A stretch of 24,430 bases of DNA from a virus. The translations under genes were made by a program, and so were the position numbers. The notes under the pieces are model-generated. The model saw nothing but the letters and a program-made list of their open reading frames with translations, made no database searches and was not told where the DNA came from. Below are positions 3,179 through 19,591 of the stretch, in pieces; the stretch's first letter is position 1, and every line of letters starts with the position of its first letter. The stretch lies in the IMG/VR virus record IMGVR_UViG_3300022198_001815, positions 1-24,430 of that record, one strand, 5' to 3'.

Positions 3179-3602
3179 CGAAATAAAGAGTACGGACGGA
3201 AGGAAGTACAACAAACGACTTCCGTCTAAAGTAAAGTTAAAGCAAAGTGTAACTACAAAGCCAGCTGCCATGAATCAGGCTAAGAAAGACAGAGTAGGTA
3301 AGTTTGCTATAAATGCCATAAAGAAAGTTTATGGATCAGAGGCTGGAGCTATGGAGAAGTTAGCAGAGCTGTCTGGAGAAAGCTTTCAGCACCTCAAGCT
3401 GCTCTTGGAGTATGCCTATGGTAAGGCAGGAGAAAACATTCAGGAGCAAGCTCCTGCAAGGAGCAATGCTCCCGTTATAAACTTCTTTAACACACAGCTA
3501 CCTGAAGGAGACAAAGAAGATACTATTGATATAGACTCTGAAGAAATAGACGACATTGAAGACGCAGAAATAGATGAAGACACAGATAGCTTTACATCCT
3601 AA
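3159..3602 (+). CDS. Putative terminase small subunit, 147 aa
   Basis: The assignment rests mainly on position: it lies directly upstream of, and overlaps by 29 bases, the large terminase gene, the usual place for the DNA-recognising small subunit. The protein has a very basic N-terminus (residues 1-45), a helical core (about 46-90, including KFAINAIKKVYGSE and LKLLLEYAYGKAGE) and a strongly acidic C-terminus from about residue 115 (DIDSEEIDDIEDAEIDED). This basic-helical-acidic layout is compatible with small terminases, but I cannot point to a diagnostic motif. The alternative is a different packaging accessory, with the DnaA-like protein upstream doing site recognition. Confidence 0.5.
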   Translation: MAKQKSNEIKSTDGRKYNKRLPSKVKLKQSVTTKPAAMNQAKKDRVGKFAINAIKKVYGSEAGAMEKLAELSGESFQHLKLLLEYAYGKAGENIQEQAPARSNAPVINFFNTQLPEGDKEDTIDIDSEEIDDIEDAEIDEDTDSFTS

Positions 3603-4788
3603 GTATCAACCACTATTCACGTCTGACTCAAGGTACTTTATAGTTACAGGTGGACGTGGCTCAGGGAAGTCATTTGGCGTTGCGGTGTTTCTACTCAGCT
3701 TAACATACGAGGAGGGACACCGAGTTCTTTTTAGCAGATATACGATGCTATCTGCTCAGACCTCTATTATTCCTGAGTTCATTGAGAAGATAGATATGAT
3801 GGGTCTGCAATCAGACTTTCGTATTACAAAGGATGAGATTATAAACATGACCACTAAGAGCACCATTATGTTCAAGGGTATTAGAACATCAAGTGGTAAT
3901 CAAACGGCTGCCCTGAAGTCTCTAAATGGCGTTACCACCTTTGTGTTGGACGAAGCGGAAGAGCTTATAGACGAAGATACCTTTGATAAGATAGACTTCT
4001 CTGTTAGAACACAAGATAAGCAGAACCGTTGTATTATGATCATGAACCCTGCTACTAAGGAGCATTGGATATACCAACGCTTCTTTCAGAACATGGGCGT
4101 TCCTGAGTCTTATAATGGCTCAGAGAAGAACGTTACTTATGTACATACCGACTACAGAGATAACGCAGAAAACCTATCTCCATCGTTCTTAGAACAGATT
4201 AGAGAGATGAAAGTTAAGCGGCCTGATAAATACCAGCACGCCATACTTGGCGGCTGGTTAAGCAAGGCAGAAGGTGTGGTGTATAAGAATTGGAGAGTAG
4301 GAGACTATGAACATAAGGAGCTTAGTTGTTGGGGACTCGATCCAGGTTTCGCACAAGATATTACAGCTCTTGTTCAGATTAGCGTAGATAATGAAGCTAA
4401 GAAGCTGTGGGTTAGAGAAGGCTTTGGTCAGAAGGCACTGACTACTTCTCAGATAGGTAGTAAGTGTAGACAGCACTGCGGTATAGATTTAATTATTTGT
4501 GATAGCAGTGAACCAAGATTGATTACAGAGCTGAAGGCACAGGATATTAATATCAGGCCTACTATTAAGAAGAAGGGGTCAATCCTTTCAGGGATTGCTC
4601 TTGTGCAGGATTATGAGATTATAGTAGACCGATCAAGTCATGGTATTATCAGAGAGCTTAATAACTATATATGGCAAGAGCGTAACGCAAAGCCTATAGA
4701 TAACTACAACCACTTTATGGATGCTATGCGCTATGCTTTACAGTTCTTAATACAGGGAAAAAGTTTAGGTAGGTATGTTATTCGTTAG
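3574..4788 (+). CDS. terL: Terminase large subunit (ATPase and nuclease), 404 aa
   Basis: This is the motor that packages phage DNA into proheads and cuts it. The N-terminal ATPase domain has Walker A GGRGSGKS (26-33), Walker B VLDEAEE (124-130) and a coupling motif IMIMNPA (154-160). The C-terminal RNase H-like nuclease domain has its acidic residues in GLDPGF (D256), ICDSSEP (D310) and HFMDAMRYA (D383). Length and motif spacing fit PBSX-type (Terminase_3/6) large subunits. It overlaps the small-subunit candidate by 29 bases. The ATG at 3574 gives a short leader before the core. A terminator follows at 4841. Unlike most phages, the next gene is not the portal, which lies about 16 kb downstream. 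A reading on the - strand at 4258-4476 is a shadow. Confidence 0.95.
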   Translation: MKTQIALHPKYQPLFTSDSRYFIVTGGRGSGKSFGVAVFLLSLTYEEGHRVLFSRYTMLSAQTSIIPEFIEKIDMMGLQSDFRITKDEIINMTTKSTIMFKGIRTSSGNQTAALKSLNGVTTFVLDEAEELIDEDTFDKIDFSVRTQDKQNRCIMIMNPATKEHWIYQRFFQNMGVPESYNGSEKNVTYVHTDYRDNAENLSPSFLEQIREMKVKRPDKYQHAILGGWLSKAEGVVYKNWRVGDYEHKELSCWGLDPGFAQDITALVQISVDNEAKKLWVREGFGQKALTTSQIGSKCRQHCGIDLIICDSSEPRLITELKAQDINIRPTIKKKGSILSGIALVQDYEIIVDRSSHGIIRELNNYIWQERNAKPIDNYNHFMDAMRYALQFLIQGKSLGRYVIR

Positions 4789-4840
4789 TATATTATTTGT
4801 ATATTAGCATAGTCAAACATTACGGAATCTTGTAAGAAAG

Positions 4841-4871
4841 GGTCAGCGAACAATAGTAGCTGGCCTTTTTT
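4841..4871 (+). terminator. Rho-independent terminator after terL
   Basis: GGTCAGC (4841-4847) pairs with GCTGGCC (4859-4865) with one G-T wobble, around an 11-base loop, and is followed by a T6 run. It lies 52 bases after the terL stop and should end the first operon. Confidence 0.75.
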
Positions 4872-4907
4872 GTTTTGTACCCTATTTCATAGTTCGCTTC
4901 GCTGCCT

Positions 4908-4971
4908 CTTTAACATAGTACCCCTTTTAACATAGTACCCTCTTTAATATAGTACCCCCTTTAACATAGTA
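4908..4971 (+). repeat. Four-copy CTTTAAYATAGTA array (array A)
   Basis: Four units with the core TTTAAYATAGTA start at 4908, 4925 (first base T), 4942 and 4959, a regular period of 17 bases. C-runs (CCCC, CCC, CCCCC, CCCCC) fill the gaps. The third copy has T where the others have C. The array lies between the terL terminator and the promoter of the accessory genes. A second array with the same core is at 7079-7158, just after those genes. Confidence 0.85.
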
Positions 4972-5008
4972 ACCCCCTATGGCTTCAGCCATTTGGGGGT
5001 GTTTTGCT
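4972..5008 (+). terminator. Strong hairpin, possible terminator, at end of array A
   Basis: ACCCCC (4972-4977) pairs with GGGGGT (4995-5000), and ATGGC (4979-4983) pairs with GCCAT (4988-4992) around a TTCA loop. A short TGTTTTG tail follows. The U-tract is weak, so it may be a terminator or a structured end of the repeat array. Confidence 0.5.
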
Positions 5009-5050
5009 TGTTCAGAAAACTTTCTTAAAGAAATGTTAAAGTTGAAAAAG

Positions 5051-5084
5051 TTTGCATTTGTTTAGATTTTTGTATTTAGGTTTG
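5051..5084 (+). promoter_or_regulatory. Bacteroidota-type promoter for the accessory genes
   Basis: TAGGTTTG (5077-5084) is an exact match to the Bacteroidota -7 consensus TAnnTTTG. Two TTTG boxes lie upstream (5051-5054 and 5057-5060), leaving 22 or 16 bases to the -7 box, close to the usual -33 spacing. The first ORF begins at 5120. The promoter at 7264 has a similar layout: GTTAAAG upstream, TAnnTTTG, then AATAACTAAAA before the ATG. Confidence 0.6.
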
Positions 5085-5119
5085 TAACCGCAATGATGCA
5101 ATAACTAAAACCTATTAAA

Positions 5120-5272
5120 ATGAAAAAAGAACAATTTGCACACAATTTGAAAAAGGCTAAAAGACAAGCCAAAGAAGAACGGAACGAGCAAGTCAATTCA
5201 GTATGGAGGGAGATGTTTTCTTCTTGGATTGATGTTTACGAAAACGATTTGTTAAACATTAGAAAAAGTTAA
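5120..5272 (+). CDS. Small basic hypothetical protein, 50 aa
   Basis: This is the first ORF after the promoter at 5077, with an A-rich leader (CCTATTAAAATG) typical of Bacteroidota starts. The protein has a charged N-terminal helix rich in Lys, Arg and Glu (about 2-25) and a more hydrophobic C-terminal helix with two Trp residues (W29, W36). It ends two bases before the next gene. No known domain is recognised. A small accessory protein is likely. Confidence 0.5.
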   Translation: MKKEQFAHNLKKAKRQAKEERNEQVNSVWREMFSSWIDVYENDLLNIRKS

Positions 5273-5274
5273 TT

Positions 5275-5493
5275 ATGAAAGCAAAAGAAATGTACCTTAA
5301 TCTATATGACCTGCACACAGCTCAATTAAACGAAACTGATTCAGATATTTATTTGTGTGGTAGCTCTTATTACAAAGGAGAGCCTATTGAACTATGCGTT
5401 GTGTTTAATGATATGACCTTCTTGGAGTTTGTATCACACGATGACATTAACAGAATAAAAGAGAACCTAAAGAAACGAATTGATAACTTATAA
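5275..5493 (+). CDS. Hypothetical protein, 72 aa
   Basis: The second gene of the accessory cassette begins two bases after the previous stop. The first half looks beta-rich (DIYLCGSSYYKG, LCVVFNDMTFLEF) and the end is a charged helix (INRIKENLKKRIDNL). There are no membrane or signal features. An antisense reading at 5370-5609 is a shadow. The compact size and the location in a self-contained cassette inside the late region suggest a host-interaction gene, but no function is visible. Confidence 0.6.
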   Translation: MKAKEMYLNLYDLHTAQLNETDSDIYLCGSSYYKGEPIELCVVFNDMTFLEFVSHDDINRIKENLKKRIDNL

Positions 5494-5504
5494 ACTAAAC
5501 TATT

Positions 5505-5756
5505 ATGAAAACTAAACAAGAATACAGAGTAATTGACCAAGAAGCTTGGGCTTCTTCTTTTGTAATGTATGTTACATTTGAATATAACGAAAAAGTTTAT
5601 ACCGCACAATCACAATATATTAATGGTGGTTGGGGACTTGATGATGTAGAAGTTTATGATGATAACAGAGATAGCGTTTTCGATGAAGATGTATTGTCTA
5701 TTGGTGAGAATCTTATTTGGGATATGGAAATTAACAAAGACACAATAACTTATTAA
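5505..5756 (+). CDS. Acidic hypothetical protein, 83 aa
   Basis: The start follows the ACTAAACTATT leader immediately. The protein has a likely beta-sheet N-terminal part (FVMYVTFEYNEKVYTAQSQY, about 20-39), then a Gly/Asp-rich segment (GGWGLDDVEVYDDNRD) and an acidic C-terminus. The strong negative charge and small size are features shared with many phage proteins that bind host enzymes. That is analogy only. No family recognised. Confidence 0.6.
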   Translation: MKTKQEYRVIDQEAWASSFVMYVTFEYNEKVYTAQSQYINGGWGLDDVEVYDDNRDSVFDEDVLSIGENLIWDMEINKDTITY

Positions 5757-5780
5757 TTATAGAAATTAAACTGAACTATT

Positions 5781-5921
5781 ATGATAAAGAGATTTTATTC
5801 TGTATGGGTGGGTGGAACTGAAGTAGTAGATAACCTATTAACCGAAGAAGAAGCTAATAAGGTATTTGATCATTACATATCTGAAGGCTATACTGATGTA
5901 GCAATAACTGAATACAATTAA
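5781..5921 (+). CDS. Small hypothetical protein, 46 aa
   Basis: A 47-codon ORF starts at 5781 directly after the leader variant AACTGAACTATT. It ends 18 bases before the next start, and that gap again carries the leader. The sequence begins with a short beta-like stretch (FYSVWVGGTEVVD), continues with a helix (LTEEEANKVFDHYIS) and ends in another beta-like stretch (DVAITEYN). This resembles a small beta-alpha-beta unit. The repeated leader is the main evidence that it is a real gene. Function unknown. Confidence 0.55.
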   Translation: MIKRFYSVWVGGTEVVDNLLTEEEANKVFDHYISEGYTDVAITEYN

Positions 5922-5939
5922 CTATTAAACTAAACTATT

Positions 5940-6143
5940 ATGCCAAAGAATAGAGAATTAACAAGTAACGAATTGGAATTTTTGTCTGAATGCGCTGATA
6001 TGGCAGTGTTCCTTGCAATTCCTGAGCCTTATTATTCTGCTGAAGATGGCTGTGATTATTACACCGAAAAAGCTCAAGACTTATTTAATAAGATATATGA
6101 TGAGATAGAAGATTCATATAGAACACTAATTATTTTAAACTAA
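5940..6143 (+). CDS. Acidic hypothetical protein, 67 aa
   Basis: It begins after two partial copies of the ACTATT leader and ends with a TAA that is itself part of the next leader copy, six bases before the following ATG. The protein is helical and acidic (SNELEFLSECADMAVFL, then KAQDLFNKIYDEIEDSY), with two Cys residues (C18, C39). There is no membrane segment long enough for anchoring. Family not recognised. Confidence 0.6.
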   Translation: MPKNRELTSNELEFLSECADMAVFLAIPEPYYSAEDGCDYYTEKAQDLFNKIYDEIEDSYRTLIILN

Positions 6144-6149
6144 ACTATT

Positions 6150-6713
6150 ATGAAAACTATTGAGATTAAAGTTTACCAGTACGATGAACTGTCTGATAAG
6201 GCAAAAGAGAACGCTAACAATTATTACCTTAACAATCTTTTTGATGAATGGTGGTATGAATCTACTTATGATGATGCTAAGGAATTTCGCTTAGATATTA
6301 AAGAGTTTGATATTTATCGAAACTACATTAAAGTAGAATTTAAATACGATGCAGAAGAAACTGCAAAAGCTATTGTAGAGAATGCAGGCGGAGAATTATT
6401 GGAGCTTGCAAAAGATTGGCAAACGGAAGTCAATAAGCTATGGGAGTCTTTTAGCGACTATAATAAATACCAGGAATGGTTAGCACAAAGGAATTACAGT
6501 TTAGATGATATGGAATTTGAAGACTGGGTAATGGAGGAGAGCGGATATTCTGATGACAAAGAATCTACTGATTCTGACTTCTTGTATCAATTAGGTGAAT
6601 ACTATTTAAACTATCTAAAGTCAGATTATTACTATTTCGGTAGTGAAGAATACATTCAGGACTATTACGAATGCAACGATTATTTGTTTGATATTAATGG
6701 TAAAATAGTATAG
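6150..6713 (+). CDS. Very acidic Tyr/Trp-rich phage protein, 187 aa
   Basis: The protein carries about 46 Asp/Glu against about 18 Lys/Arg and is unusually rich in Tyr and Trp. Its N-terminus (MKTIEIKVYQYDELSDKAK) resembles a widespread group of phage proteins starting T-I-x-I-x-V-Y...ELS-x-x-AK that are annotated as hypothetical, or sometimes loosely as antitoxin-like. I cannot confirm a link to any toxin system. The strong negative charge spread along the length could mimic DNA or RNA, as some phage anti-defence proteins do, which is speculation. It is the largest gene of the accessory cassette, six bases after the previous stop, with the shared ACTATT leader. Confidence 0.65.
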   Translation: MKTIEIKVYQYDELSDKAKENANNYYLNNLFDEWWYESTYDDAKEFRLDIKEFDIYRNYIKVEFKYDAEETAKAIVENAGGELLELAKDWQTEVNKLWESFSDYNKYQEWLAQRNYSLDDMEFEDWVMEESGYSDDKESTDSDFLYQLGEYYLNYLKSDYYYFGSEEYIQDYYECNDYLFDINGKIV

Positions 6714-6715
6714 TT

Positions 6716-6850
6716 ATGAGAAAACACAAAGCAAGTAACTACGAGTTTAGTGCTATGGTAGCCACCTATGCACTGGGTATGATATGTGTAGTAACCTTAT
6801 TCATGATGTTTGTATTAGTAATGGAATTAACTTGTTGGAACTTATGGTAA
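6716..6850 (+). CDS. Small single-pass membrane protein, 44 aa
   Basis: The ORF starts two bases after the previous stop and overlaps the next start by seven bases. A basic N-terminus (MRKHKASNYEF) is followed by one hydrophobic helix from about residue 13 to 36 (MVATYALGMICVVTLFMMFV). The tail is ELTCWNLW, with Trp near the membrane surface. Positive-inside reasoning puts the N-terminus in the cytoplasm. It could be a holin-like, spanin-like or superinfection-exclusion peptide. Nothing distinguishes these. Confidence 0.5.
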   Translation: MRKHKASNYEFSAMVATYALGMICVVTLFMMFVLVMELTCWNLW

Positions 6851-7044
6851 CTATTAAAACAATAAAGGATCTAAACACAAGTAGCCTAACAGCTAAAGAT
6901 GCTTGTAAGTTAGCCAGCACCAATAAGCAGTATTTGGTTATGGTGCATGATAAAATGCACCTAACCAATGAACCTTATCAATTCCTTGTAATGAAATATC
7001 CAGATGCACTAATGGAAGAAATAAAAATTTATTCGTTGAAATAA
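6844..7044 (+). CDS. Hypothetical protein, 66 aa
   Basis: I prefer the ATG at 6844 to one at 6784. The longer version would overlap nearly the whole preceding membrane ORF, and the segment after 6844 has the typical compact start MVTIKTIKDLNTSSL. The protein is mixed alpha/beta with a central helix (TAKDACKLASTNKQYLVMVHDK) and ends EEIKIYSLK. It is the last gene of the accessory cassette. A hairpin terminator and the second repeat array follow within 30 bases. Function unknown. Confidence 0.55.
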   Translation: MVTIKTIKDLNTSSLTAKDACKLASTNKQYLVMVHDKMHLTNEPYQFLVMKYPDALMEEIKIYSLK

Positions 7045-7070
7045 TTTTTTCGTTCCGCCTAAAACTTTTC

Positions 7071-7107
7071 AGCCCCCTCTTTAATATAGTAGGGGGCTTT
7101 CTTCTTT
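7071..7107 (+). terminator. Terminator hairpin whose loop is a repeat unit
   Basis: AGCCCCCT (7071-7078) pairs perfectly with AGGGGGCT (7091-7098). The 12-base loop CTTTAATATAGT is nearly a complete array unit. A T-rich tail follows (TTCTTCTTT). It ends the accessory operon and links the repeat family to terminator hairpins. Confidence 0.7.
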
Positions 7108-7158
7108 AACATAGTAACCCTCCTCTTTAACATAGTATCCCCCTTCTTTAACATAGTA
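7079..7158 (+). repeat. Four-copy CTTTAAYATAGTA array (array B)
   Basis: Units lie at 7079-7091, 7104-7116, 7125-7137 and 7146-7158 with spacings of 25, 21 and 21 bases. The gaps are C-rich or T/C-rich, except the first, which is the G-run arm of the terminator. The first copy has the T variant and the other three have C, as in array A. C-runs continue to about 7187. Confidence 0.85.
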
Positions 7159-7263
7159 GCCCCCTTGCCCCCCCTCAATAACCCCCTTATTTAGAATCAT
7201 TCTAAGGACTGTTAAAGTTTTGTTAAAAAGTGTAAAAAAGTTTTTTTAAGTGTTTTTCTGTTT

Positions 7264-7271
7264 TATGTTTG
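7264..7271 (+). promoter_or_regulatory. -7 box of a second Bacteroidota-type promoter
   Basis: TATGTTTG matches TAnnTTTG exactly and is followed 32 bases later by the ATG of a mini-ORF. No clear TTG lies at the -33 distance, where the sequence is T-rich. The downstream AATAACTAAAA stretch matches that of the promoter at 5077. Confidence 0.45.
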
Positions 7272-7303
7272 TGTCATAATTAATAACTAAAAAAGAAAAC
7301 AAA

Positions 7304-7408
7304 ATGAAAACAAAAGTAAACTATGCACAATTAATCGTATTATTAACTATCGCATCTCTGGGCGTTGCTGTCATTGCTCACATGATCGCAAACAATGTAA
7401 CCTATTAA
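7304..7408 (+). CDS. Membrane mini-protein, 34 aa
   Basis: This is the first ORF after the promoter at 7264, with an A-rich leader. It has a short basic N-terminus (MKTKVNYAQ) and one hydrophobic helix of about 20 residues (LIVLLTIASLGVAVIAHMIA). At this size chance cannot be excluded. Support comes from the promoter-proximal position, the leader and its membrane-helix character. Small single-pass phage peptides of this kind include toxins and exclusion factors, but no specific match is seen. Confidence 0.4.
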   Translation: MKTKVNYAQLIVLLTIASLGVAVIAHMIANNVTY

Positions 7409-7409
7409 C

Positions 7410-7502
7410 ATGAAAAAAGAACTAATCTTAAACGCTTTATTTTTATTATTTTCAATAGCTCTATTTAAGGGGCTATTGTTTTTAATTTATGTTTTTAACT
7501 AA
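7410..7502 (+). CDS. Possible hydrophobic mini-protein over a hairpin, 30 aa
   Basis: The ORF starts one base after the previous stop and ends at AAC TAA followed by ACTATT, the same context as the gene end at 6143. It is nearly all hydrophobic (LILNALFLLFSIALF, then GLLFLIYVF), split by one Lys-Gly. The bases also form a terminator-like hairpin (7453-7478), so the ORF may be a by-product of a T-rich terminator. Kept at low confidence. Confidence 0.3.
   Translation: MKKELILNALFLLFSIALFKGLLFLIYVFN
7453..7486 (+). terminator. Terminator-like hairpin
   Basis: CAATAGC (7453-7459) pairs with GCTATTG (7472-7478) around a 12-base loop, followed by TTTTTAATTT. It could end the short transcript from the 7264 promoter, or attenuate expression of the 7534 gene. 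Confidence 0.5.
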
Positions 7503-7533
7503 ACTATTTTTTTAACTATTAAATTTATCTATT

Positions 7534-8424
7534 ATGAGAAAAGTATTTTCAAGTCATTCCGAAGTTTGTCACAAGTTCAACGAACAAAGCCAAAGCGAGG
7601 GGCGGGCGGGTAGTATATTCTTTTATGGTAATAAGATTTATTCCTATGGATATCACTATTTGCTTGCTGAATTTATTTCGCCCGAAATTATCCTAATTAA
7701 TAATAAAGGCTATTCTAACAGCACCTCAAAGCATATTGCAATTTTATCCAGTGCAACGCGAGACAAAAAGCAAGTTTATATAACTAAGATACATTTAGAA
7801 CTTGTTTTGCTACAATTACAGAAATTATACAAAAACCTTATCAAAGCAAGAAAACCTCTTTTCTATAAAAATAGTATTGAGGCGTTATATTTAGATTTTG
7901 TTGATGAGGTTAATTTTTTAGGCGGTTTTTATATTGGTGATAGTTTTAACTACTCTTTTGACTTTGTCCCTTATTCTGAAATGAATAAAGAGCAAAAGGA
8001 AAAGTATATACGAATAAATGAAATTAGAACTTTGGCTGATGAATACGCCAAAAGCGAAAAGTATCTAAACAAGATAGAACGAGCCAAAGAATTAGAGGAA
8101 ACCAAAGCCCAAAGAGAAAAAGAGGAAAAGGAAAAACAAATAGATAATTTTTATAGCTACAAAGGTAGCCGAATTAATTGGCTCGAATTTGACCTATTGA
8201 GGCTATCTAAGTGCGGTGAATTTGTCGAAACGAGTCAAGCAGTAAAGATACCTATTAAAGAGGCTCAAAGGTTTTATAAACTATTTAAAAGTGGTGTTGA
8301 ATTAGTAGGCGAAAAAATTAGCCACTATACCACAAAGAGCAACGAAAACTATCTACAAATAGGTTGTCACAAAATAGAACATATCGAGGCGAAAAGAATA
8401 GGCCAATTAATCTTAAATAAATAA
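7534..8424 (+). CDS. Phage protein of unknown function, 296 aa
   Basis: The N-terminal part (about residues 15-72) matches a pattern I recall from many phage proteins annotated as hypothetical or DUF-only: QSEGRAGSIFFYGNKIYSYG, then a beta strand pair and NNKGYSNSTSKHI. Its function is unknown. The middle (about 165-205) is a charged coiled coil (RAKELEETKAQREKEEKEKQ). The C-terminal part has basic helices. There is no nuclease or ATPase motif. The leader contains an AACTAAACTATT copy at 7498-7509 and two further ACTATT or CTATT copies before the ATG. It ends two bases before the next gene, so the pair is probably an operon. Confidence 0.75.
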   Translation: MRKVFSSHSEVCHKFNEQSQSEGRAGSIFFYGNKIYSYGYHYLLAEFISPEIILINNKGYSNSTSKHIAILSSATRDKKQVYITKIHLELVLLQLQKLYKNLIKARKPLFYKNSIEALYLDFVDEVNFLGGFYIGDSFNYSFDFVPYSEMNKEQKEKYIRINEIRTLADEYAKSEKYLNKIERAKELEETKAQREKEEKEKQIDNFYSYKGSRINWLEFDLLRLSKCGEFVETSQAVKIPIKEAQRFYKLFKSGVELVGEKISHYTTKSNENYLQIGCHKIEHIEAKRIGQLILNK

Positions 8425-8426
8425 CT

Positions 8427-8627
8427 ATGTTTAATATATTAGATAGTACACAATTAGCCGAACAAGAATTAACCATAAAGCAACGCTTGCGGATACTAAA
8501 GAGCCGTAAAAAGTACGCTGTTATTTGTCTGGACAATTTATACCTGGTTGATGACCTGGAGCGGTTATTCTTTGACCGATTAAGAGCTGAAAATATCTAC
8601 AACGCTATTGTATATCAGCTCAGATAA
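8427..8627 (+). CDS. Hypothetical protein, 66 aa
   Basis: It begins two bases after the previous stop and is followed by a terminator at 8652. The protein is helical (TQLAEQELTIKQRLRILKSRKK) with a hydrophobic segment KYAVICLDNLYLVDDL in the middle and a C-terminal helix rich in Arg. An antisense reading at 8318-8536 is a shadow. The tight link to the 7534 gene suggests a shared function, which is unknown. Confidence 0.6.
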   Translation: MFNILDSTQLAEQELTIKQRLRILKSRKKYAVICLDNLYLVDDLERLFFDRLRAENIYNAIVYQLR

Positions 8628-8651
8628 AAAAACGCTTTAAACTGCCTTAAA

Positions 8652-8678
8652 AGCCCCTTAAATAGGGGCTATTTTTTT
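8652..8678 (+). terminator. Rho-independent terminator
   Basis: AGCCCCT (8652-8658) pairs perfectly with AGGGGCT (8664-8670) around a 5-base loop TAAAT, followed by A and T7. A clear terminator 25 bases after the 66-aa gene. Confidence 0.85.
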
Positions 8679-8684
8679 GCCCTA

Positions 8685-8692
8685 TAATTTTG
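8685..8692 (+). promoter_or_regulatory. Possible promoter -7 box ahead of the gene-free region
   Basis: TAATTTTG fits TAnnTTTG and is followed by CAAAGG. No TTG lies 17-23 bases upstream, where the terminator stem sits. It would start a transcript near 8700 leading through the structured region to the tail genes. Confidence 0.3.
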
Positions 8693-8760
8693 CAAAGGTG
8701 CTGAAAACATGAAAAGTTAAAATTGCTTAATGTAACCAACTAAAATAGCTTTACTCTCAA

Positions 8761-8784
8761 CTATGATAGTAATACTATCAATAG
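8761..8784. repeat. Inverted repeat, GATAGTA-A-TACTATC core
   Basis: GATAGTA (8765-8771) and TACTATC (8773-8779) form a perfect 7-base inverted repeat around one base. It extends outward to CTAT and ATAG with one unpaired base. It is flanked by two AATAGCTTT copies (8744 and 8780). The form suits a dimeric DNA-binding protein better than a terminator. Confidence 0.5.
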
Positions 8785-8844
8785 CTTTTATCTATAGTAA
8801 TTCAAGTAGCTATAAGAAAAAGTAATGTAAAGTGAACTTGACGG

Positions 8845-8929
8845 GGGGTAAGTTACTCATTTCGATGAATTCAATGCAATATGAAAGTGCGGAGGGGTAA
8901 GTTATCCACTTCAACGAATTCATTCGATT
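8845..8929 (+). repeat. Imperfect direct repeat, period 49
   Basis: Two 36-base copies begin GGGGTAAGTTA (8845 and 8894) and continue as CA-x-TTC-x-A-x-GAATTCA. About three quarters of positions agree. Each copy contains GAATTC. Possible operator pair or a decayed duplication. Confidence 0.55.
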
Positions 8930-9260
8930 CAGCGTGCCTGCTCCGCCATGAGGCCGCCCCGTTCATGCAGCAAAAAACATAATAGAGTGTTTAAACATAA
9001 TCAAGGGTTACTGCCATCTCCCCCCTAAAGGGGGAGTGGCGGAGACTACATAGAGGGTTTCCGCTCTATAAGGTATACGAGAGTGATGTATGCGCCCCCC
9101 TAAATGCTCTAAATAAAATAATAATGCTGGTCAGGCTGTATGTTGATGGGGCGCACACAAGAGCAATAGAAGAGTATCAACGCAGTTCCTAAGCAGACTT
9201 AGGGTGTCTGATCCAACAGCTGGTGTTCCTGAAGTTTGGGGATTTAGTTAGGCAGATTCC
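8930..9260 (+). ncRNA. Candidate structured RNA or regulatory region
   Basis: No credible ORF is seen here, but several perfect complementary segments are. CTCCGCCA (8941-8948) pairs with TGGCGGAG (9037-9044). CTCCCCC (9018-9024) pairs with GGGGGAG (9030-9036). ATAGAG (9050-9055) pairs with CTCTAT (9064-9069). TGCGCCCC (9091-9098) pairs with GGGGCGCA (9148-9155). CCTAAG (9188-9193) pairs with CTTAGG (9198-9203) with a CAGA loop. A perfect 10-base palindrome TGTTTAAACA lies at 8988-8997. Base composition is locally more G/C-rich than the flanks. It matches no RNA family I can name. The remaining stretches 8693-8929 and 9261-9382 hold only the repeats listed separately. Confidence 0.35.
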
Positions 9261-9316
9261 CTTCTACCATATCAGTCTATACTAAGATAACTAAATAATT
9301 AAAATCTGTTCATTAT

Positions 9317-9360
9317 AATCTGTAAGCATAAACCACCTTTTTGGTTACAATCTGTAAGCA
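9317..9360 (+). repeat. Direct repeat AATCTGTAAGCA, two copies
   Basis: Exact 12-base copies lie at 9317-9328 and 9349-9360, 32 bases apart, with a shorter AATCTGT at 9304-9310. They sit just upstream of the first tail gene and could be sites for a late-gene activator. Confidence 0.55.
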
Positions 9361-9382
9361 ATTTACGGATATGGTACAAAAT

Positions 9383-10132
9383 ATGAAAGTTTGGTTATCT
9401 CTATGTATGGGAAAGACAATACAGTTAGAGCTTACTATTCCGCAACGTTTGGCAGACATTAAGTTGGAGCAATATCAAAAGTACGTTAAGGTACTTGACG
9501 GTATTGATAAGGAAGCTGAAGACGCAGGTGACTTTATTAATCTTAAGGCTCTTGAGATATTCTGTGGGCTACAGCTTAAGGAATCTTATAAGCTACCAGT
9601 ATCTTCTTTTCAGTCGGTATTAGAAACCATTGCTAATTGCTTGCAAGAACCTACACCGCTTGTAAAGCGGTTTTGGTTCAGAGGCTCTAATGGAACGGAG
9701 GTAGAGTTTGGAATGATACCTGACCTTAAGAACATCTCATTTGGTGAGTATATAGACTTGGACAGGTACATAGGAGACTGGACGCAGATGCACAGAGCTA
9801 TGGCTATCTTATTTAGACCCATTACAGCTAAGAAGGGAGAGTTCTACGAGATAGAGGATTATGAAGGATCTGATAAGTATGCAGGTCACATGTTACACAT
9901 GCCTGCAAATGTAGCGTTAGGAGCGTTGGTTTTTTTTTATCGTTTAGGAATGAAATTGTCGAAACATACGATGGACTATTCACTAAAACAGATGACTCAG
10001 GAGCAGCGCCAACAAGTAGAGAGCAAGTTTTCGGAGCTAAATGGGGTTGGTATCAATCACTTTATGCACTCGCTGGAGGAGATGTCTCAAAATTTGATAC
10101 GATTGCAGAGCAACCACTCACTAAATGCCTAA
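9383..10132 (+). CDS. Tail assembly chaperone, short (zero-frame) form, 249 aa
   Basis: By position and pattern this is the G-type tail chaperone of the module. It precedes the tail completion genes and the tape measure, and a second frame overlaps its end. The core begins IQLELTIPQRLADIKLEQYQ, a start I recall from related Bacteroidota phage proteins. The start is uncertain: in-frame ATGs at 9371, 9383 and 9407 are all possible, and a TTG at 9341 would run through the direct repeats. I used 9383 for its A-rich leader. After VALGALVFF (the T-run at 9930-9938) this frame continues with about 64 helical residues and ends at TAA 10130-10132. Those last 64 residues are shared in DNA with the frameshifted extension. 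Confidence 0.7.
   Translation: MKVWLSLCMGKTIQLELTIPQRLADIKLEQYQKYVKVLDGIDKEAEDAGDFINLKALEIFCGLQLKESYKLPVSSFQSVLETIANCLQEPTPLVKRFWFRGSNGTEVEFGMIPDLKNISFGEYIDLDRYIGDWTQMHRAMAILFRPITAKKGEFYEIEDYEGSDKYAGHMLHMPANVALGALVFFYRLGMKLSKHTMDYSLKQMTQEQRQQVESKFSELNGVGINHFMHSLEEMSQNLIRLQSNHSLNA
9930..9938 (+). promoter_or_regulatory. Candidate -1 ribosomal frameshift site (T9)
   Basis: Nine T in a row place T-TTT-TTT (9931-9937) in the classic X-XXY-YYZ register of the chaperone frame. AGGAG (9919-9923) lies seven bases upstream, like the internal Shine-Dalgarno stimulator of dnaX. A weak downstream stem ATCGT (9939-9943)/ACGAT (9968-9972) is possible. Confidence 0.7.
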
Positions 10133-10209
10133 CATGGTTAGTATTTGAGAAGGAGAAAAACGAATTAGAAGAGAAACGAATAAAAGACGCATATAACAAG
10201 AACAGATGA
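9937..10209 (+). CDS. Frameshifted C-terminal extension of the tail assembly chaperone (GT form)
   Basis: After a -1 slip in the T-run, reading continues for 90 codons to TGA at 10207-10209, giving a fusion of about 275 aa. The extension includes FGAKWGWYQSLYALAGGD and then PLTKCLTWLVFEKEKNELEEK, which I recognise as the conserved C-terminal pattern of chaperone-type proteins in related phages. The whole open frame (9877-10209, 111 codons) contains no ATG, GTG or TTG, so it cannot start on its own. It ends in an ATGA overlap with the next gene (10206-10209), as elsewhere in these operons, whereas the short form stops 73 bases before that gene. In lambda the analogous GT fusion recruits the tail tube protein to the tape measure. 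That role is inferred here. Confidence 0.7.
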   Translation, partial: LSFRNEIVETYDGLFTKTDDSGAAPTSREQVFGAKWGWYQSLYALAGGDVSKFDTIAEQPLTKCLTWLVFEKEKNELEEKRIKDAYNKNR

Positions 10210-10670
10210 CAAGTATATACGATGTTATAACTAAGATAAAAGTTTTCCTACGGGAAAACCCTATAGTGAACTATGTGACCTATGGAGACATTACGCAAGT
10301 AGACCTCAACAAGACTACTATGTTTCCACTAACCCACTTTTTCATTCGAAATGTAGCCATCACCGAACACGCTATGCGTGTGACGGTGTCTTTATTGTTC
10401 TTAGATATAGTAGACTACACGAAGGAATATAATGCGGATGACTTAGGAGACAGACAAGATGCAAGCAACCTTATTGATGTGTACAATACGCAGCTACAGA
10501 TTGCCAATGCGCTGGTACAAGACCTAAGAAGAGGTGATCTATACAGAGACAAGTATCAACTCGTAGGCGAGCCTGTTTGTGAGCCATTTAAAGACCGATT
10601 TGAAAACGAGCTTGCAGGATGGTCAATGGACATTACTATAGACATTGTTAACGATATATCTGTATGTTAG
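10206..10670 (+). CDS. Putative tail terminator/completion protein, 154 aa
   Basis: It starts with MTSIYDVITKIKVFL and contains DITQVDLNKTTMFPLTHFFI (about 28-47), later LRRGDLY (about 107-113). I recall this layout from conserved tail-module proteins of Bacteroidota phages. Size, position between the chaperone and a neck-like protein, and a mixed alpha/beta pattern fit a tail terminator that caps the tail tube, but no diagnostic residue proves it. The start overlaps the frameshift product by four bases, which also supports that product. The end overlaps the next gene by seven bases. Confidence 0.55.
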   Translation: MTSIYDVITKIKVFLRENPIVNYVTYGDITQVDLNKTTMFPLTHFFIRNVAITEHAMRVTVSLLFLDIVDYTKEYNADDLGDRQDASNLIDVYNTQLQIANALVQDLRRGDLYRDKYQLVGEPVCEPFKDRFENELAGWSMDITIDIVNDISVC

Positions 10671-11149
10671 AACAACAACTTAAGGCGCTATTTGACCTCT
10701 ACGGAGAGGAGTTCATAAAGGACATGCGTGCTAAGATGGCCTCTGATAAAAGATCGGCCTCTGGTTCAGCAAGCATAAGCCTTGAGAGCGTTTCTACAGG
10801 TAGCGGATTTGCTATATTAGGTAACGACTACATAGAGCAGATTAGTGAAGGGAGAAGACCAGGCCCGATAAGCAAAGAGGGATTTAAGAGAATAAAGGAA
10901 TGGGTAAGAATTAAGGGTATAACCCCTAATAAACCAAATATCAGATACAAGGACTTACCGTTTCTTATGGCAAGAAGCGTAAGAACAAGAGGATTTGCCG
11001 CTACAGGCTTATTTGACTATGTAATCAACAAAAACATCGTACAGTTAAGCGAGGATGTAGCAGACGTAGTCTTAGAGGTGGTAGGACAGCAAATAGACCA
11101 AACTATAAAAGCAAACTTTAAAGGACGTAACATAGGAACAGCAATATAA
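10664..11149 (+). CDS. Putative neck/head-tail joining protein (HK97 gp10-like), 161 aa
   Basis: The central pattern EGRRPGPISKEGFKRIKEW (60s to 80s), then a PFLMARSVRTRGFAATGLFD segment (about 103-122), resembles minor tail or neck proteins of the HK97 gp10 type. There, a Gly-Arg-Arg-Pro-Gly turn and an I-x-x-W helix recur. The function would be joining the head to the tail. It overlaps the preceding gene by seven bases and shares its final A with the next ATG. Recognition is by pattern only. A tail-completion role is the main alternative. Confidence 0.55.
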   Translation: MLEQQLKALFDLYGEEFIKDMRAKMASDKRSASGSASISLESVSTGSGFAILGNDYIEQISEGRRPGPISKEGFKRIKEWVRIKGITPNKPNIRYKDLPFLMARSVRTRGFAATGLFDYVINKNIVQLSEDVADVVLEVVGQQIDQTIKANFKGRNIGTAI

Positions 11150-12315
11150 TGAGCGCAATAATTAACACAAGGAGTCCGTATTATGTTAATATGAGCAGAT
11201 CATCTGCATTATCTGTAAAGGTAAACTTAAGGATATATTCAGGTCTTCAATCAGCTCTTCCAGCTACAGACACCTACTCTCTAATAAAAAACACTTCAGA
11301 TAATGGAGGTACGGTTACTGAGTACGCAACATTTGAAATAAGTGAACTAATCAGGGATTATATATACACCGATTATTATACAGATGCGATAGATGCTGTG
11401 TGGGTACGAGTAGAAAGAACTTTTTACGATGGATTAAATGGTACGGGTAGCACCCTTTCGGGAGGCGGTACTTTATATTACCTTGCCATTGATGGATTTG
11501 GATACTTCGAAGAGGGTGTGAATCCAAGAACATCTATAGACCCAGATGACGAATCTTATACACCCATGACCTTGCAAGACAACCTTACGGTTTACTTTGT
11601 GCCTGGTGAGCAAATCACGTTACCATTCTTTTCTGAAGCAGAGCCTTTAATAGACTTTACGTTCTCAGGAGGTGCAGGGGTAGAGTGGCAAGCATTAGAC
11701 AACTTTTGGGAAACATACGATGGGCTATGGAACTCTTCTTTGGACGATGTTCAAATTGAAGATTCTACAGACAGCCTTGATAAGATTCAATATATAGGTA
11801 TATTTCCTACTAACAACATAAAAACGGGAGACACCGCAACAGTCACCTCAACCACAGGAACTGCACAAACGCAGAATATTGTGTTTAAGGCTCTGTGTGC
11901 GGGCAAATACCCTGATGTTAAGATTGTATTCTATAACAAGTACGGAGCAATACAAGAGCTTTGGGCACACAAAAAATCAGTTAAGTCATTAAGCACTAAA
12001 TCTGAAACCTACAACAGGAATATCATGGATTATGCTGCTGTTGACTATAGCGTCTATAAGCACGCCACGTCACGTTTTGACGTGAACGGGCGTGAGTCTA
12101 TTACGGTAAATACAGACTTTATGGACGAGTCTATAAACGACCCTGTTAAACAACTATTACTTTCTGAGCAAGTATGGTTAGATATAGGAACTGACACTTA
12201 TCCAGTAGTCATTAAGACCTCTTCTTTAACAGAGAAAACGAGTGTTAACGATAAGATGGTTCAATATACTTTTGAGTTTGAATACGCTTACGATAAGGTG
12301 CAAAACATTAGATAA
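11149..12315 (+). CDS. Putative tail structural protein, 388 aa
   Basis: This is a long beta-rich protein with many Thr, Ser, Gly and Asp residues and no enzymatic motif. The C-terminal third carries FYNKYGAIQELW (about 261-272), then SETYNRN, and the end FEFEYAYDKVQNIR. I recall similar sequences from flavobacterial and marine phage tail modules. It overlaps both neighbours by one base, so it is in the tail operon. A baseplate or distal tail component is plausible given its place before the tape measure gene. An antisense reading at 11351-11533 is a shadow. Confidence 0.6.
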   Translation: MSAIINTRSPYYVNMSRSSALSVKVNLRIYSGLQSALPATDTYSLIKNTSDNGGTVTEYATFEISELIRDYIYTDYYTDAIDAVWVRVERTFYDGLNGTGSTLSGGGTLYYLAIDGFGYFEEGVNPRTSIDPDDESYTPMTLQDNLTVYFVPGEQITLPFFSEAEPLIDFTFSGGAGVEWQALDNFWETYDGLWNSSLDDVQIEDSTDSLDKIQYIGIFPTNNIKTGDTATVTSTTGTAQTQNIVFKALCAGKYPDVKIVFYNKYGAIQELWAHKKSVKSLSTKSETYNRNIMDYAAVDYSVYKHATSRFDVNGRESITVNTDFMDESINDPVKQLLLSEQVWLDIGTDTYPVVIKTSSLTEKTSVNDKMVQYTFEFEYAYDKVQNIR

Positions 12316-14315
12316 TGCAGACAGTACAGCTGTACATAAATGACACAAGAATTGAGCTGTTTAAGGACGAAGACATTGCTTTAAATGAGTCCATCCGTAA
12401 TGCAAAGGACATTGCGAAGGTGTTTACCACCTTCAGCAAGCAATTTACCGTTCCAGCAAGCAAGACTAACAATAAGGTCTTTAAGCACTACTACAATTTT
12501 AACATATCAGGAGGTTTTGATGCTCGAACTACGCAATCAGCACGCATAGAGATTAATAATTTACCCTTTAAAGACGGTAAAATTAAGCTGAATGGGGTGA
12601 AAATGAAGGATAATGCACCTTATGCATATAACATAACCTTCTTTGGTAGTATAGTAGACCTAAAAGACGTTCTTGGAGAGGATAAATTGACCGATTTAGA
12701 CGATTTAGGACTTTTGGTAAAGGACTACTCTAATTCAGGTATATTAACTGCGCTACAGGCGGCTCCTGGAGAGACAGCATTACCTTTAGTTACCGCTAAT
12801 CAGCAATTATACTACGACACAAGAGATAATACCGTTGGTACGGGTAATTTGTACTATAATGCATCATATCTTAAAGGGTTAGACCCTAAACAGCTTAAAT
12901 ATGCGGTAAGACTCGACAAGATTATTGATGCTATTGAAAGTAAGTACAGTCAAATAACTTTTGCGAGCACAAGCTTCTTTAAAGATGCCACAAAGGACAT
13001 TCATAAGCTTTATATGTGGTGTCACAGAAAGAAAGACTTAATTACAATAACACCTGGATCTGAGCAAAGAATTACTTTTGACCCTACTTACTCACTACCC
13101 GCTTTTAACATAGAAGCCGACAGTGATGCAGTGCTTGCTGTAAGTGCTGTTGCAGGAGACACCTTTGAGTTGGCTGTTTCTGCTGGAGCTACAGACAAGT
13201 ACGACCTTATAATTAAGAAAAATGGCACTATAGTAAAGGAATACACGAATCAGACAGGTTCTGTTACCTACAGCACTGGTAGTTTTGTCTCTGGGGATCA
13301 GTTTGGTGCTTTTGTTAAGACTTACGATAAAAGTATTACGTTTTCAGGTATCAGATGGATATTTAAGGATAATGGATCAGAGTTTCAGGATGAAGACGCA
13401 AACAATTTTACTTATTTAAGGTCTTTTAGCTTCAATATACAAGAGCAAATACCTGAGCAAAAGATTATAGACTTCTTATCGAACCTATTTAAGATGTTTA
13501 ATTTGGTTGCGTATGTAAATACGGATGGAGAAATAGATGTGCAGCCATTAGACACCTTTTATACATCCACTTCACATGATATAACCGATTATGTAGATGT
13601 GAATGAGTCAGAAATCAATGTGGCACTACCTTATAAAGAAATATTCTTAAAGTACAAGGACACTAAGACCATTCTTGCAGCTCAACACTTGCAAGAGATA
13701 GCTAATATCGATTGGGGTGGTAATGAGTATACAGATACAGGCAACTTGTATGGGGAAACTTACAAGGTAGAGCCTTCGTTTAACCACTCTAAATTTGAGA
13801 AGTTATTAGACCTTTCTGATAATTCTGTAGATACGGGAATAATGTATGGCTACTATGTTGATGATAATCAGAACGGATATTTAGGAGATCCTTTAATAAT
13901 GTATATAGACCAAGCCCAGATAGGAGTTCAGATGTCTATAAATAATGATGGCGTGCTTTCAAGCTTCGCTTCATCAACAATCATTAACATGCCCTCTAAC
14001 TTAGAAGATATTGCAGACGAAACGTCTAACAATATCCACTTTAACACAGAGCTAAGTGAATACAATGGATTAAGTGCTGATGAGACGTTATTTAAGCGTT
14101 TTTATGAGAACTATATAGTAAACATCTTCGATTTAGACAATAGACTCACAAAAGTAACTGCATATCTTCCTGTTCAAAAAATAGTAAGGGGAGGTAAACA
14201 AATAACGCTTTCGGATGTTATTGTTCTTAATCAAAACAAGTACAGGATAAACTCCATGAGCATCAACCTTACTACAGGTAAAACGGACTTTGAATTAATT
14301 AACTACTATGATTAA
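12315..14315 (+). CDS. Large putative tail/baseplate protein, 666 aa
   Basis: The N-terminal region (about 1-115) has DEDIALNESIRNAKDI, then FSKQFTVPASKTNNKVF, NISGGFDA and YNITFFGSIVDLKDVLGEDKL. I recall this conserved head region from large structural proteins of Bacteroidota phages. The middle (about 255-345) looks like a beta-sandwich insertion of Ig-like type, with many short strands. The C-terminal part again has conserved-looking strands (IVLNQNKYRINSMSINLTTG). There are no catalytic motifs. It is likely a distal tail or baseplate hub protein. It starts on the last base of the preceding gene and overlaps the next small ORF by eight bases. Confidence 0.6.
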   Translation: MQTVQLYINDTRIELFKDEDIALNESIRNAKDIAKVFTTFSKQFTVPASKTNNKVFKHYYNFNISGGFDARTTQSARIEINNLPFKDGKIKLNGVKMKDNAPYAYNITFFGSIVDLKDVLGEDKLTDLDDLGLLVKDYSNSGILTALQAAPGETALPLVTANQQLYYDTRDNTVGTGNLYYNASYLKGLDPKQLKYAVRLDKIIDAIESKYSQITFASTSFFKDATKDIHKLYMWCHRKKDLITITPGSEQRITFDPTYSLPAFNIEADSDAVLAVSAVAGDTFELAVSAGATDKYDLIIKKNGTIVKEYTNQTGSVTYSTGSFVSGDQFGAFVKTYDKSITFSGIRWIFKDNGSEFQDEDANNFTYLRSFSFNIQEQIPEQKIIDFLSNLFKMFNLVAYVNTDGEIDVQPLDTFYTSTSHDITDYVDVNESEINVALPYKEIFLKYKDTKTILAAQHLQEIANIDWGGNEYTDTGNLYGETYKVEPSFNHSKFEKLLDLSDNSVDTGIMYGYYVDDNQNGYLGDPLIMYIDQAQIGVQMSINNDGVLSSFASSTIINMPSNLEDIADETSNNIHFNTELSEYNGLSADETLFKRFYENYIVNIFDLDNRLTKVTAYLPVQKIVRGGKQITLSDVIVLNQNKYRINSMSINLTTGKTDFELINYYD

Positions 14316-14457
14316 AGATATTATAGACCTACTAAATACCAATGATTGGATAGTAGGAGATGAGGATATAGACTTTGCTATGGGAGCCAATAAGCTCCCA
14401 AGCACACTCAAAGAAGCTAAACAACTAATTAAACGAAGAAATGGCAGACTCAGTTAA
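14308..14457 (+). CDS. Small hypothetical protein, 49 aa
   Basis: A 50-codon ORF fills the gap between the baseplate-like protein and the tape measure gene, overlapping them by 8 and 17 bases. It begins MIKDIIDLLNTNDW and ends with a basic helix LKEAKQLIKRRNGRL. Without it the gap would be 125 bases, unusual in this operon, and the overlaps favour a real gene. Function unknown. It might help tape measure folding, which is only positional guesswork. Confidence 0.55.
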   Translation: MIKDIIDLLNTNDWIVGDEDIDFAMGANKLPSTLKEAKQLIKRRNGRLS

Positions 14458-16222
14458 AAAGATACTATTAGAATTAGAATTAAACTCTGAAGGTGCTGTT
14501 GTTGGAATAAACAGGACTGAGAAAGAATTACAGGATTTAGGAAAGACAACTCAAGCGGTGTCTAAGCAGACTTCTGATATGAATAAAGCATTTCAGAATA
14601 CTGCTGGTTCTGCTGGTATTGCAGGTGCAGCTACTGCAGAATTTGGTAGATTTATCTCGGATTTACCTTATGGTATTCAAGCAGTAACAAACAACATTTC
14701 TCAGTTAGGTTCAATGTTTGCTTTGCTTGTCTCTTCTGCTGGAGGTGTAAGGAATGCTCTTAAGGCAATGTGGACTACAATGATGGGGCCTGCTGGTGTT
14801 CTTATTGCGTTTCAAGCTATAGTTGCATCTGTTGATTACTTTAGTAGGTCTACAAGCAAGGCTACTGAAGAGGTTAACAAACTTAATGAGGCAATGTCAA
14901 ATTTAGAGCCAAGAATAGAAGAAATGAATGCTTTGGCTAATATATTAGAAGATAATAATGCTTCGTTTAAAGAACAAAGAGTTGCTCTTGAAGACTTAAA
15001 AAAACTTGGGTATGATCCGCTTGTAGAGTCTTTGACTGAGTTTAGAGATAGATATATAGAGATTATAACATTACAAGCAACTAAAGACATATTCGCTGAA
15101 AGGATTGCTTCTATTGTTAAACAGAGACTTGAGTTGCAGGATGAAATAGAGAGGTTAAAAGAAGAGTTTACTGATGATGAAACTTTCCTTGAGAAAGTAG
15201 CTGCTATGTTCAACATACCACTCAAAGAAGCTCAAGATGCTATAGTGGCAATGAAACTTGAATTGTCTCCTCAAGCATTGGCTCAACTAAATCAAGACTT
15301 AAAGAAGGAAACTGAATCATTTGCTAATATAGTACGGCAAATAGTCTCTACTGTTGCTGCGGGTCAGCCTGAACCAAGGCCTTTGGTCGAGAAGCTAATA
15401 TCTCAAATACTTGGACTTGTAAATGTAAGAACTGAAGACATAGCAGATCAAATTGCAGATAATGTGCCAAGCCCAGACGAAATTATAGAGGGACTTATAA
15501 GAAAAAGAAAGGTTGACGAGTCAGGAGAGTTGTTTGATAAGATGCTTGGCATGAAGCTTTCTTCTGAAAAACTTGCAGGGAGACTTGATACTATTAGTCA
15601 GGCTTTTGATTCTTTAAATCAGATATTAAATGCGCAGGCTCAAAGAGAAATGGATATTGAAGAAGCAAAAACCATAGCTCAGAATGATGCATTAAGAGAG
15701 CGTTTAAGAAATGAACAATTAAGTGCTGAACAAAGAGATTCTATTAATCAGCAAATATCAAGAAATGAAGCTAAGTTAATAGAAGAGCAAAATAAGATGA
15801 AGGAAAAGGCCTTTAAAAGAGATAAGGCTTTTAGAATCTCTATGGGGTTAATTGATACCGCATCTTCTGCTATTAAAGCGTATGGATCTCAATTAATACC
15901 AGGTGACCCAAGTTCACTTGTTAGAGCGCAAGTTGCTGCTGCTTTAACAACTGCTTTTGGATTGGCACAGGTAGCCGCTATTGCAAGTCAAAAATTTGTT
16001 CCTCAAGCATCACCAACACCAAATCTTACTGCTCAAGGAAGTGGAGAAGCGGGAGGTTTGTCTCCTTCTTTTAATGTGGTTGGCTCTGCTAATCAGAATC
16101 AGATTGCAGCAGCTGTATCTGCAGCAATCAGAGAAACTCCAGTAAGAAGTTATGTGGTTTCTTCTGATGTAACTACAGCGCAGCAGCTTGACAGAAACAT
16201 TATATCGAGCGCATCAATCTAA
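14441..16222 (+). CDS. Tape measure protein, 593 aa
   Basis: This protein sets tail length and occupies the tail tube lumen. The N-terminus has a short beta/coiled start, then a Gly/Ala-rich segment and FGRFISDLPYGIQAVTNN (68-85), a motif I recall from Bacteroidota phage tape measure proteins. A hydrophobic stretch follows at about 89-132. Coiled coil dominates roughly 140-280 and 400-460 (RLRNEQLSAEQRDSINQQ). A second Ala-rich hydrophobic segment near 490-520 (AQVAAALTTAFGLAQVAAIA) is followed by a low-complexity tail. If the lambda ratio of about 0.15 nm per residue holds, the tail would be near 90 nm, which is an estimate. An antisense reading at 14836-15225 is a shadow. Confidence 0.88.
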   Translation: MADSVKKILLELELNSEGAVVGINRTEKELQDLGKTTQAVSKQTSDMNKAFQNTAGSAGIAGAATAEFGRFISDLPYGIQAVTNNISQLGSMFALLVSSAGGVRNALKAMWTTMMGPAGVLIAFQAIVASVDYFSRSTSKATEEVNKLNEAMSNLEPRIEEMNALANILEDNNASFKEQRVALEDLKKLGYDPLVESLTEFRDRYIEIITLQATKDIFAERIASIVKQRLELQDEIERLKEEFTDDETFLEKVAAMFNIPLKEAQDAIVAMKLELSPQALAQLNQDLKKETESFANIVRQIVSTVAAGQPEPRPLVEKLISQILGLVNVRTEDIADQIADNVPSPDEIIEGLIRKRKVDESGELFDKMLGMKLSSEKLAGRLDTISQAFDSLNQILNAQAQREMDIEEAKTIAQNDALRERLRNEQLSAEQRDSINQQISRNEAKLIEEQNKMKEKAFKRDKAFRISMGLIDTASSAIKAYGSQLIPGDPSSLVRAQVAAALTTAFGLAQVAAIASQKFVPQASPTPNLTAQGSGEAGGLSPSFNVVGSANQNQIAAAVSAAIRETPVRSYVVSSDVTTAQQLDRNIISSASI

Positions 16223-16252
16223 AACATAAACAACTAATTAAGTTATCCTAAT

Positions 16253-17182: not shown

Positions 17183-17316
17183 TGGCTAAGCAGACCGTAG
17201 CAATAAAAGCACAGAAGACTAAAGTAAACCGAAAGGGCGTTCAAGCGAAGACCAAAACAAGTCAATCAAAGACGTCTAAGAATTATAAAAAACCATACAG
17301 GGGACAAGGTAGATAA
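17182..17316 (+). CDS. Small very basic phage protein, 44 aa
   Basis: A 45-codon ORF is joined to both neighbours by a one-base overlap (TAATG at 17180-17184 and 17314-17318). The protein is strongly basic, and its end (KTKTSQSKTSKNYKKPYRGQGR spread over residues 23-44) matches a pattern I recall in mini-proteins of Bacteroidota phages: AKTKTS, then SKNYKK-x-Y-x-GQG. It may bind nucleic acid or the acidic scaffold. No experiment is implied. Perfect spacing and family resemblance support it as a real gene. Confidence 0.7.
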   Translation: MAKQTVAIKAQKTKVNRKGVQAKTKTSQSKTSKNYKKPYRGQGR

Positions 17317-17951: not shown

Positions 17952-18096
17952 ACTAAAAGGCTCAAGAAATGAGTGGAGCAGAACAAGCCCAAGAGAAAAT
18001 CGCAGGGCTTGTCTTTGTGCTAAAGGAAACACCTACAGCAGAAAGTGCTGTAAAGGCCGTATGATTAATCAAGGAATTGGTTTTATCGGAGGTTGA
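17944..18096 (+). CDS. Small Cys-rich conserved protein, 50 aa
   Basis: A 51-codon ORF overlaps the previous stop by eight bases. An Arg-rich N-terminus is followed by ACLCAKGNTYSRKCCKG (22-38) and QGIGFIGG at the end. The pattern CLC, then G-x-TYS-x-x-CC-x-G, then QGIG is one I recall from C-termini or mini-proteins of Bacteroidota phages. Four Cys residues (C23, C25, C35, C36) could bind metal or form disulfides. It lies immediately upstream of the scaffold and capsid genes. Function unknown. Confidence 0.65.
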   Translation: MRRLKGSRNEWSRTSPRENRRACLCAKGNTYSRKCCKGRMINQGIGFIGG

Positions 18097-18148
18097 AAAT
18101 ACAACAATAAAAATAAGTAATAGTTAACCCAATATAAATTAAGTATTT

Positions 18149-18610: not shown

Positions 18611-18625
18611 AATTAATAAATAACA

Positions 18626-19570: not shown

Positions 19571-19591
19571 TAAATCTAATGTTTAACAAAG

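Follow-up and report, generated by a model that had tools for sequence, protein, structure and literature searches.

The window analysed here is the whole 24,430-nucleotide stretch of viral DNA, from positions 1 to 24,430 of IMG/VR virus record IMGVR_UViG_3300022198_001815. It contains a gene that appears to be read into two different C-termini from one run of nine T's, within a module of presumed tail genes. The features of this region, all on the plus strand, are as follows.

9407-10132, + strand: zero-frame gene of 241 residues, whose N-terminal domain would be common to both products
9919-9923, + strand: AGGAG, resembling a Shine-Dalgarno sequence, ending 7 bases upstream of the heptamer and found in 7 of 105 relatives
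9930-9938, + strand: run of nine T's, read directly, with the heptamer T_TTT_TTT at 9931-9937 in the zero-frame register
9937-10209, + strand: -1-frame domain of 90 codons and a stop, without a start codon, in a frame open from 9877
9938-10132, + strand: dual-coded zero-frame tail of 64 codons and a stop, with homologous tails in most relatives
9945-9947, + strand: TAG closing the third frame just past the run; 103-104 of 105 relatives retain the TTTAGG that creates it
10133-10209, + strand: single-coded part of the -1 domain, where synonymous differences rise past the end of the overlap
10206-10670, + strand: following gene in the module, with 154 residues, in phrog_30964 (unknown function)
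14441-16222, + strand: tape-measure-like gene, matching the tape-measure family phrog_1506 (E 7e-8)

Direct reading of the letters bore out the initial annotation, which had placed nine T's here in a T-TTT-TTT register, had described a long start-less -1 frame ending in ATGA, and had estimated that 64 further zero-frame residues, or about 195 bases, are read in two frames. The zero-frame codons at the run are GTT TTT TTT TAT (9929-9940, the G being at 9929), which therefore sets the heptamer at 9931-9937. No other A or T run of at least eight occurs in the 24.4 kb window. The zero-frame gene likely starts at ATG 9407, where the starts of its homologs align; on the same alignment a listed TTG start at 9341 is unlikely. 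Its stop lies at 10130-10132, 64 codons past the heptamer, so that 195 bases, stop included, belong to both frames. The -1 frame contains no ATG, GTG or TTG anywhere in 9877-10209 and closes with TGA at 10207-10209, overlapping the ATG at 10206 of the next gene (ATGA, 10206-10209). After slippage, only the part from 9937 onward would be translated in the -1 frame (90 codons, LSFRNEIVE...YNKNR), and the resulting fusion would have about 267 residues, compared with 241 for the zero-frame product. In AlphaFold2 models, made separately for the zero-frame product and the -1 domain, most of residues 10-180 of the former had a pLDDT of about 85-95.

We sought relatives of the gene in several ways. 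With the zero-frame product as query against viral contigs we found 28 loci; the -1 domain, used by itself, gave 296 matches, and we retained 80 of these. Together these define a first clade of 87 distinct sequences in which the zero frame, T run and -1 domain stand in the same relation; the run has nine T's in 78 of them, ten in 8 and twelve in 1. The homolog from phage P12024S, used as a new starting point, yielded 63 more loci, and in the 50 distinct sequences with an in-register heptamer analysed from this second clade the run is nine T's long in 49 and ten in 1. Additional loci were supplied by a genome-derived relative, by Bacteroidetes genomes and by a nucleotide pattern scan, whose spacing was set too narrow and which recovered only a subset of loci. 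The T run, its register and both downstream frames thus proved to be conserved across some 170 distinct relatives. Most of these are IMG/VR contigs; Bacteroidetes genomes contribute a few, and P12024S and P12024L are phages in culture. Distinct contigs are not equivalent to independent lineages, and metagenomic contigs may hold homopolymer errors. T_TTT_TTT was in register in all relatives examined. Across them the zero-frame tail ranges from 16 to 84 codons and the -1 tail from 80 to 98.

In the complete genomes of the Nonlabens phages P12024S and P12024L the site reads C-T9-ATCATTTAGG, followed by a zero-frame tail of 25 codons and a -1 tail of 81 codons. In both phages the frameshift gene is annotated in two pieces, as separate hypothetical proteins: P12024S_38 and P12024S_39 (JQ823122.1, 23136-23830), and P12024L_40 and P12024L_41 (JQ823123.1, 23946-24640). 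Five remote homologs from Bacteroidetes genomes (L332-L336) have exactly seven T's, CAT TTT TTT A, in the same register and with both frames; their zero-frame tails are 28-39 codons long. A homopolymer of about nine or more is thus present in the main clades and absent from these five. One such remote homolog adjoins terminase genes (L338) and is therefore probably prophage-like.

Slippage at the conserved run offers the simple explanation for expression of the -1 frame, and it is probable that it is the ribosome that slips, at the heptamer. This reading is favoured because the remote homologs retain precisely a bare heptamer, and the phage P2 site T_TTT_TTG was also counted toward it. We consider it rather unlikely, though deserving of attention, that RNA polymerase slips on the nine T's instead, with ten-U transcripts putting ordinary translation into the -1 frame and giving the same products. 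Such slippage would fit the finding that the run is never shorter than nine outside one remote clade, a minimum that holds despite another codon phase in GCT TTT TTT TTC (L113 clade) and TTT TTT TTT CTC (L029). Similarly, the last base of the heptamer is never C in the nine-T class, though C would be silent in both frames. In 566 other ORFs of related loci, runs of at least nine are avoided, both of T (1 seen, 5.8 expected) and of A (6 seen, 33 expected), consistent with the slippage threshold of about nine bases reported for many bacteria (PMC1088944). Nonetheless, the in-register heptamer with only seven T's in five remote homologs argues against the polymerase, and the flanking T's of the main clade are also fixed by the encoded amino acids. 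The same holds when the gene is compared with transcriptional slippage at A9 or T9 in bacterial IS elements and Thermus dnaX (PMC1088944): a nine-base A/T run and a conserved shifted frame are common to both, but our relatives keep an in-register heptamer even at a run of seven. Ribosomal and polymerase slippage could also be additive. In the same 566 ORFs, A runs of at least eight numbered 79 against 107 expected, and the sharp drop at nine suggests general selection against slippage in these viruses.

The initial annotation had also pointed to AGGAG 7 bases upstream of the heptamer. The motif is indeed present, but it is not conserved, occurring in only those 7 of 105 relatives, and a study in Flavobacterium johnsoniae reported that ribosomes of its phylum do not recognise Shine-Dalgarno sequences (PMC9976891). 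For both reasons the AGGAG is probably not a stimulator, and it probably has no functional role. Downstream of the run, consensus pairs of a hairpin or pseudoknot were absent in 41 sequences, the search covering nested structures only, and RNA folding energies were like those of shuffles in 15 sequences. Slippage of either kind could do without the AGGAG, and probably without an RNA structure, though the absence of a conserved stimulator counts against the ribosomal reading.

We then compared substitution patterns in the overlap with those around it, the synonymous-site comparison proposed together with the initial annotation. In 28 independent, non-overlapping pairs, built to avoid reuse of sequences and with Fisher values that treat sites as independent, four-fold wobble sites of the -1 frame differed at 73 of 536 positions in the overlap (13.6%) and at 25 of 62 in the single-coded tail (40%), with 441 of 1155 (38%) differing upstream of the overlap. 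Zero-frame wobble sites in the overlap differed at 48 of 409 positions (11.7%), so that the suppression is strong in both frames. The clade with zero-frame tails of 79-84 codons showed the same pattern, with wobble differences of 4/317 and 11/286 compared with 72/437 upstream. Synonymous differences ran at 5-18% through most of the overlap, 29% in the ten codons past its end and then 21%, and on one tree of 59 sequences the mean number of third-position changes in the -1 frame was 7.8 in the overlap compared with 12.2 in the single-coded tail. When rates were tested inside the P12024 clade and inside the L113 clade, changes were too few to reach significance, and 1 of the 16 L113-clade rows was mis-registered. 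Taken together, both tails are under purifying selection in the shared stretch, as in dual-coding genes, the two products themselves being predicted from sequence.

It is improbable that only the -1 domain matters, with the zero-frame tail a by-product that is useless or not even translated, and with something else, such as RNA signals, constraining the overlap. The variation of zero-tail length among lineages (16-84 codons) does speak for this. However, the wobble suppression spans the overlap in both frames and weakens past the zero-frame stop, and no conserved RNA structure was found. Furthermore, amino-acid identity in the pairs was 79% for the zero-frame tail, much like the 83% of the -1 domain in the overlap and the 82% of the upstream part, and where a change was synonymous in the -1 frame, its effect on the zero-frame protein was more conservative than expected (p 0.003). 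When the -1 frame was recoded synonymously according to codon usage, the zero frame was as open as seen in a median of 0.6% of draws; with each sequence's own codons permuted, it was as open in 6%.

Still less probable is that translation starts within the -1 frame itself, through coupled re-initiation for instance, and yields a separate protein. A GTG or TTG does occur within its first 25 codons in 8 of 59 relatives, and upstream in frame in 6. Yet an ATG was found in neither stretch in any of the 59, and 45 had no ATG, GTG or TTG there at all, which makes independent initiation unlikely. In addition, the T run marks the exact beginning of the -1 domain, and a start would be required far upstream of the zero-frame stop. 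A sequencing or assembly error at the homopolymer, or a broken gene, has a negligible probability, since, error-prone as homopolymers are, about 170 distinct contigs, as well as the complete P12024S and P12024L genomes, have the same register, both frames are under selection, and a probe with eight T's returned nothing, in a search where only 10 distinct nine-T contexts would match with one T less.

As to what the gene encodes, the initial annotation had named a tail assembly chaperone. This is still the best reading, suggested by the arrangement, the tail-module context and a weak match to the P2 gpE family; against it, no curated family matched and the gene does not adjoin the tape measure. 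The arrangement is that of a frameshifted chaperone, in which a -1 shift leads from one ORF into a second that lacks a start, at an in-register slippery heptamer conserved in relatives. The N-terminal domain belongs to phrog_32199 (unknown function; E 2.7e-14). The 'tail protein' family phrog_166 was weakly matched by 10 of 58 members (best E 3.3e-4) and itself matches the P2 gpE region (E 3.6e-9). No curated chaperone family was matched in Pfam or NCBIfam. In fold searches the zero-frame product had no match in the PDB with E below 1 and, among viral models, matched uncharacterised phage proteins only. A weak fold match to Flavobacterium phage 6H was set aside, the profile search giving no match.

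The usual place of a frameshifted chaperone gene is immediately before the tape-measure gene. In the window this is not so: between the two stand four genes of 154, 161, 388 and 666 residues (10206-14315). Phage phi10:1 has a virion structural protein to which the tape-measure-like gene is related. P12024S has a similar gene order, with the frameshift gene adjoining the large terminase gene. If the chaperone reading is right, the pair of products would act in tail assembly like lambda G and GT or P2 E and E+E', with the -1 domain recruiting another tail component.

Frameshifting in tail chaperones is in itself textbook knowledge. What distinguishes the window gene is the length of the overlap, and the view that so long a dual-coding stretch is unusual is upheld by comparison with three frameshifted chaperones, those of lambda, P2 and HK97, the only yardsticks used: in these the unshifted frame runs for about 5-7 codons past the shift, compared with 64 in the window. 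P2 E and E+E' are the closest parallel, with a -1 shift at a T-rich heptamer, a place in the tail module, a C-terminally extended second product and the weak N-domain profile link through phrog_166. Unlike the window gene, however, P2 E ends its main frame about 20 bases past the shift, rather than 195, and lies directly upstream of the tape measure, rather than four genes away. Lambda G and GT likewise share one N-domain, with two C-termini produced by a -1 shift and a second ORF without its own start, but there the overlap extends 9-19 bases past the shift site and the heptamer is G_GGA_AAG; we found no sequence similarity of the window gene to lambda G or GT. HK97 gp13 and gp13-14 are an annotated -1 frameshift tail protein as well, with an overlap of about 25 bases from GGGAAAA to the zero-frame stop. 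Lambda has a ratio of about 30:1 between the unshifted protein and its shifted fusion, and the two bring the tape measure and tail tube together (PMC5009743). By analogy, the window gene may have a similar bridging role.

Since the main product of lambda, P2 and HK97 stops within 5-7 codons, only one C-terminus carries new information in those phages. The window gene, by contrast, is a predicted lambda G/GT-like device with most of its frameshift domain dual-coded. In the clade with the largest overlap, the -1 domain has 92 codons, and the zero frame runs over 84 of them. The near-constant length of the -1 domain (80-98 codons) and the variable zero-frame tail (16-84) suggest that the -1 domain is the older and that the zero-frame tail has lengthened over it. 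We give about an even chance to the further reading that the zero-frame tail serves as a second functional domain, overprinted on the older -1 domain in a tail-module gene of double-stranded DNA phages, with two isoforms as the result. If so, lineages would differ in how far the overprinting reaches, from 16 to 84 codons. Five viral models in the BFVD (A0A6J5N0W0, A0A516L611, A0A516L5A8, A0A6J5N3F3 and A0A6J5SVK3) match both the N-domain and -1 domain models; such models, 234-267 residues in length, may be natural single-frame fusions without a frameshift.

An abundant family of Bacteroidetes viruses would thus have an unshifted product with its own conserved C-terminal tail, encoded atop that of the shifted one, in genes that annotation splits into two 'hypothetical proteins'. 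The range of overlaps and the cultured pair of phages make overprinting in double-stranded DNA phages directly testable, and the family also probes the setting of frameshifting in hosts reported not to read Shine-Dalgarno sequences (PMC9976891). We found no description of this gene family in a literature search that covered few subscription papers, and any claim of novelty is limited by this partial coverage and by the use of three yardsticks.

Several other observations concern the surroundings of the gene. The gene order of the window from 3574 to 22926 is unusual, with the large terminase, small genes and tail module followed by scaffold, capsid and portal past the tape measure. One homolog of the frameshift gene (L340; G080:C5:166000-184000) lies on the opposite strand to genes resembling those of 388, 666 and 593 residues in the window; here, in a bacterial genome, the tail module is rearranged. 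A stretch of some 0.7 kb before the frameshift gene (8628-9406) is without a clear gene; it contains a G+C-rich hairpin near 9018-9045 and repeated AATCTGTAAGCA, had no Rfam or tRNA matches, and at 8960-9260 folds like shuffles (z -1.0). Finally, a long ORF at 23036-24430 continues past the end of the window and carries repeats like NTAVGYxSLxxNTTG, resembling YadA-type head repeats; by reading only, it is probably a tail fibre or adhesin.
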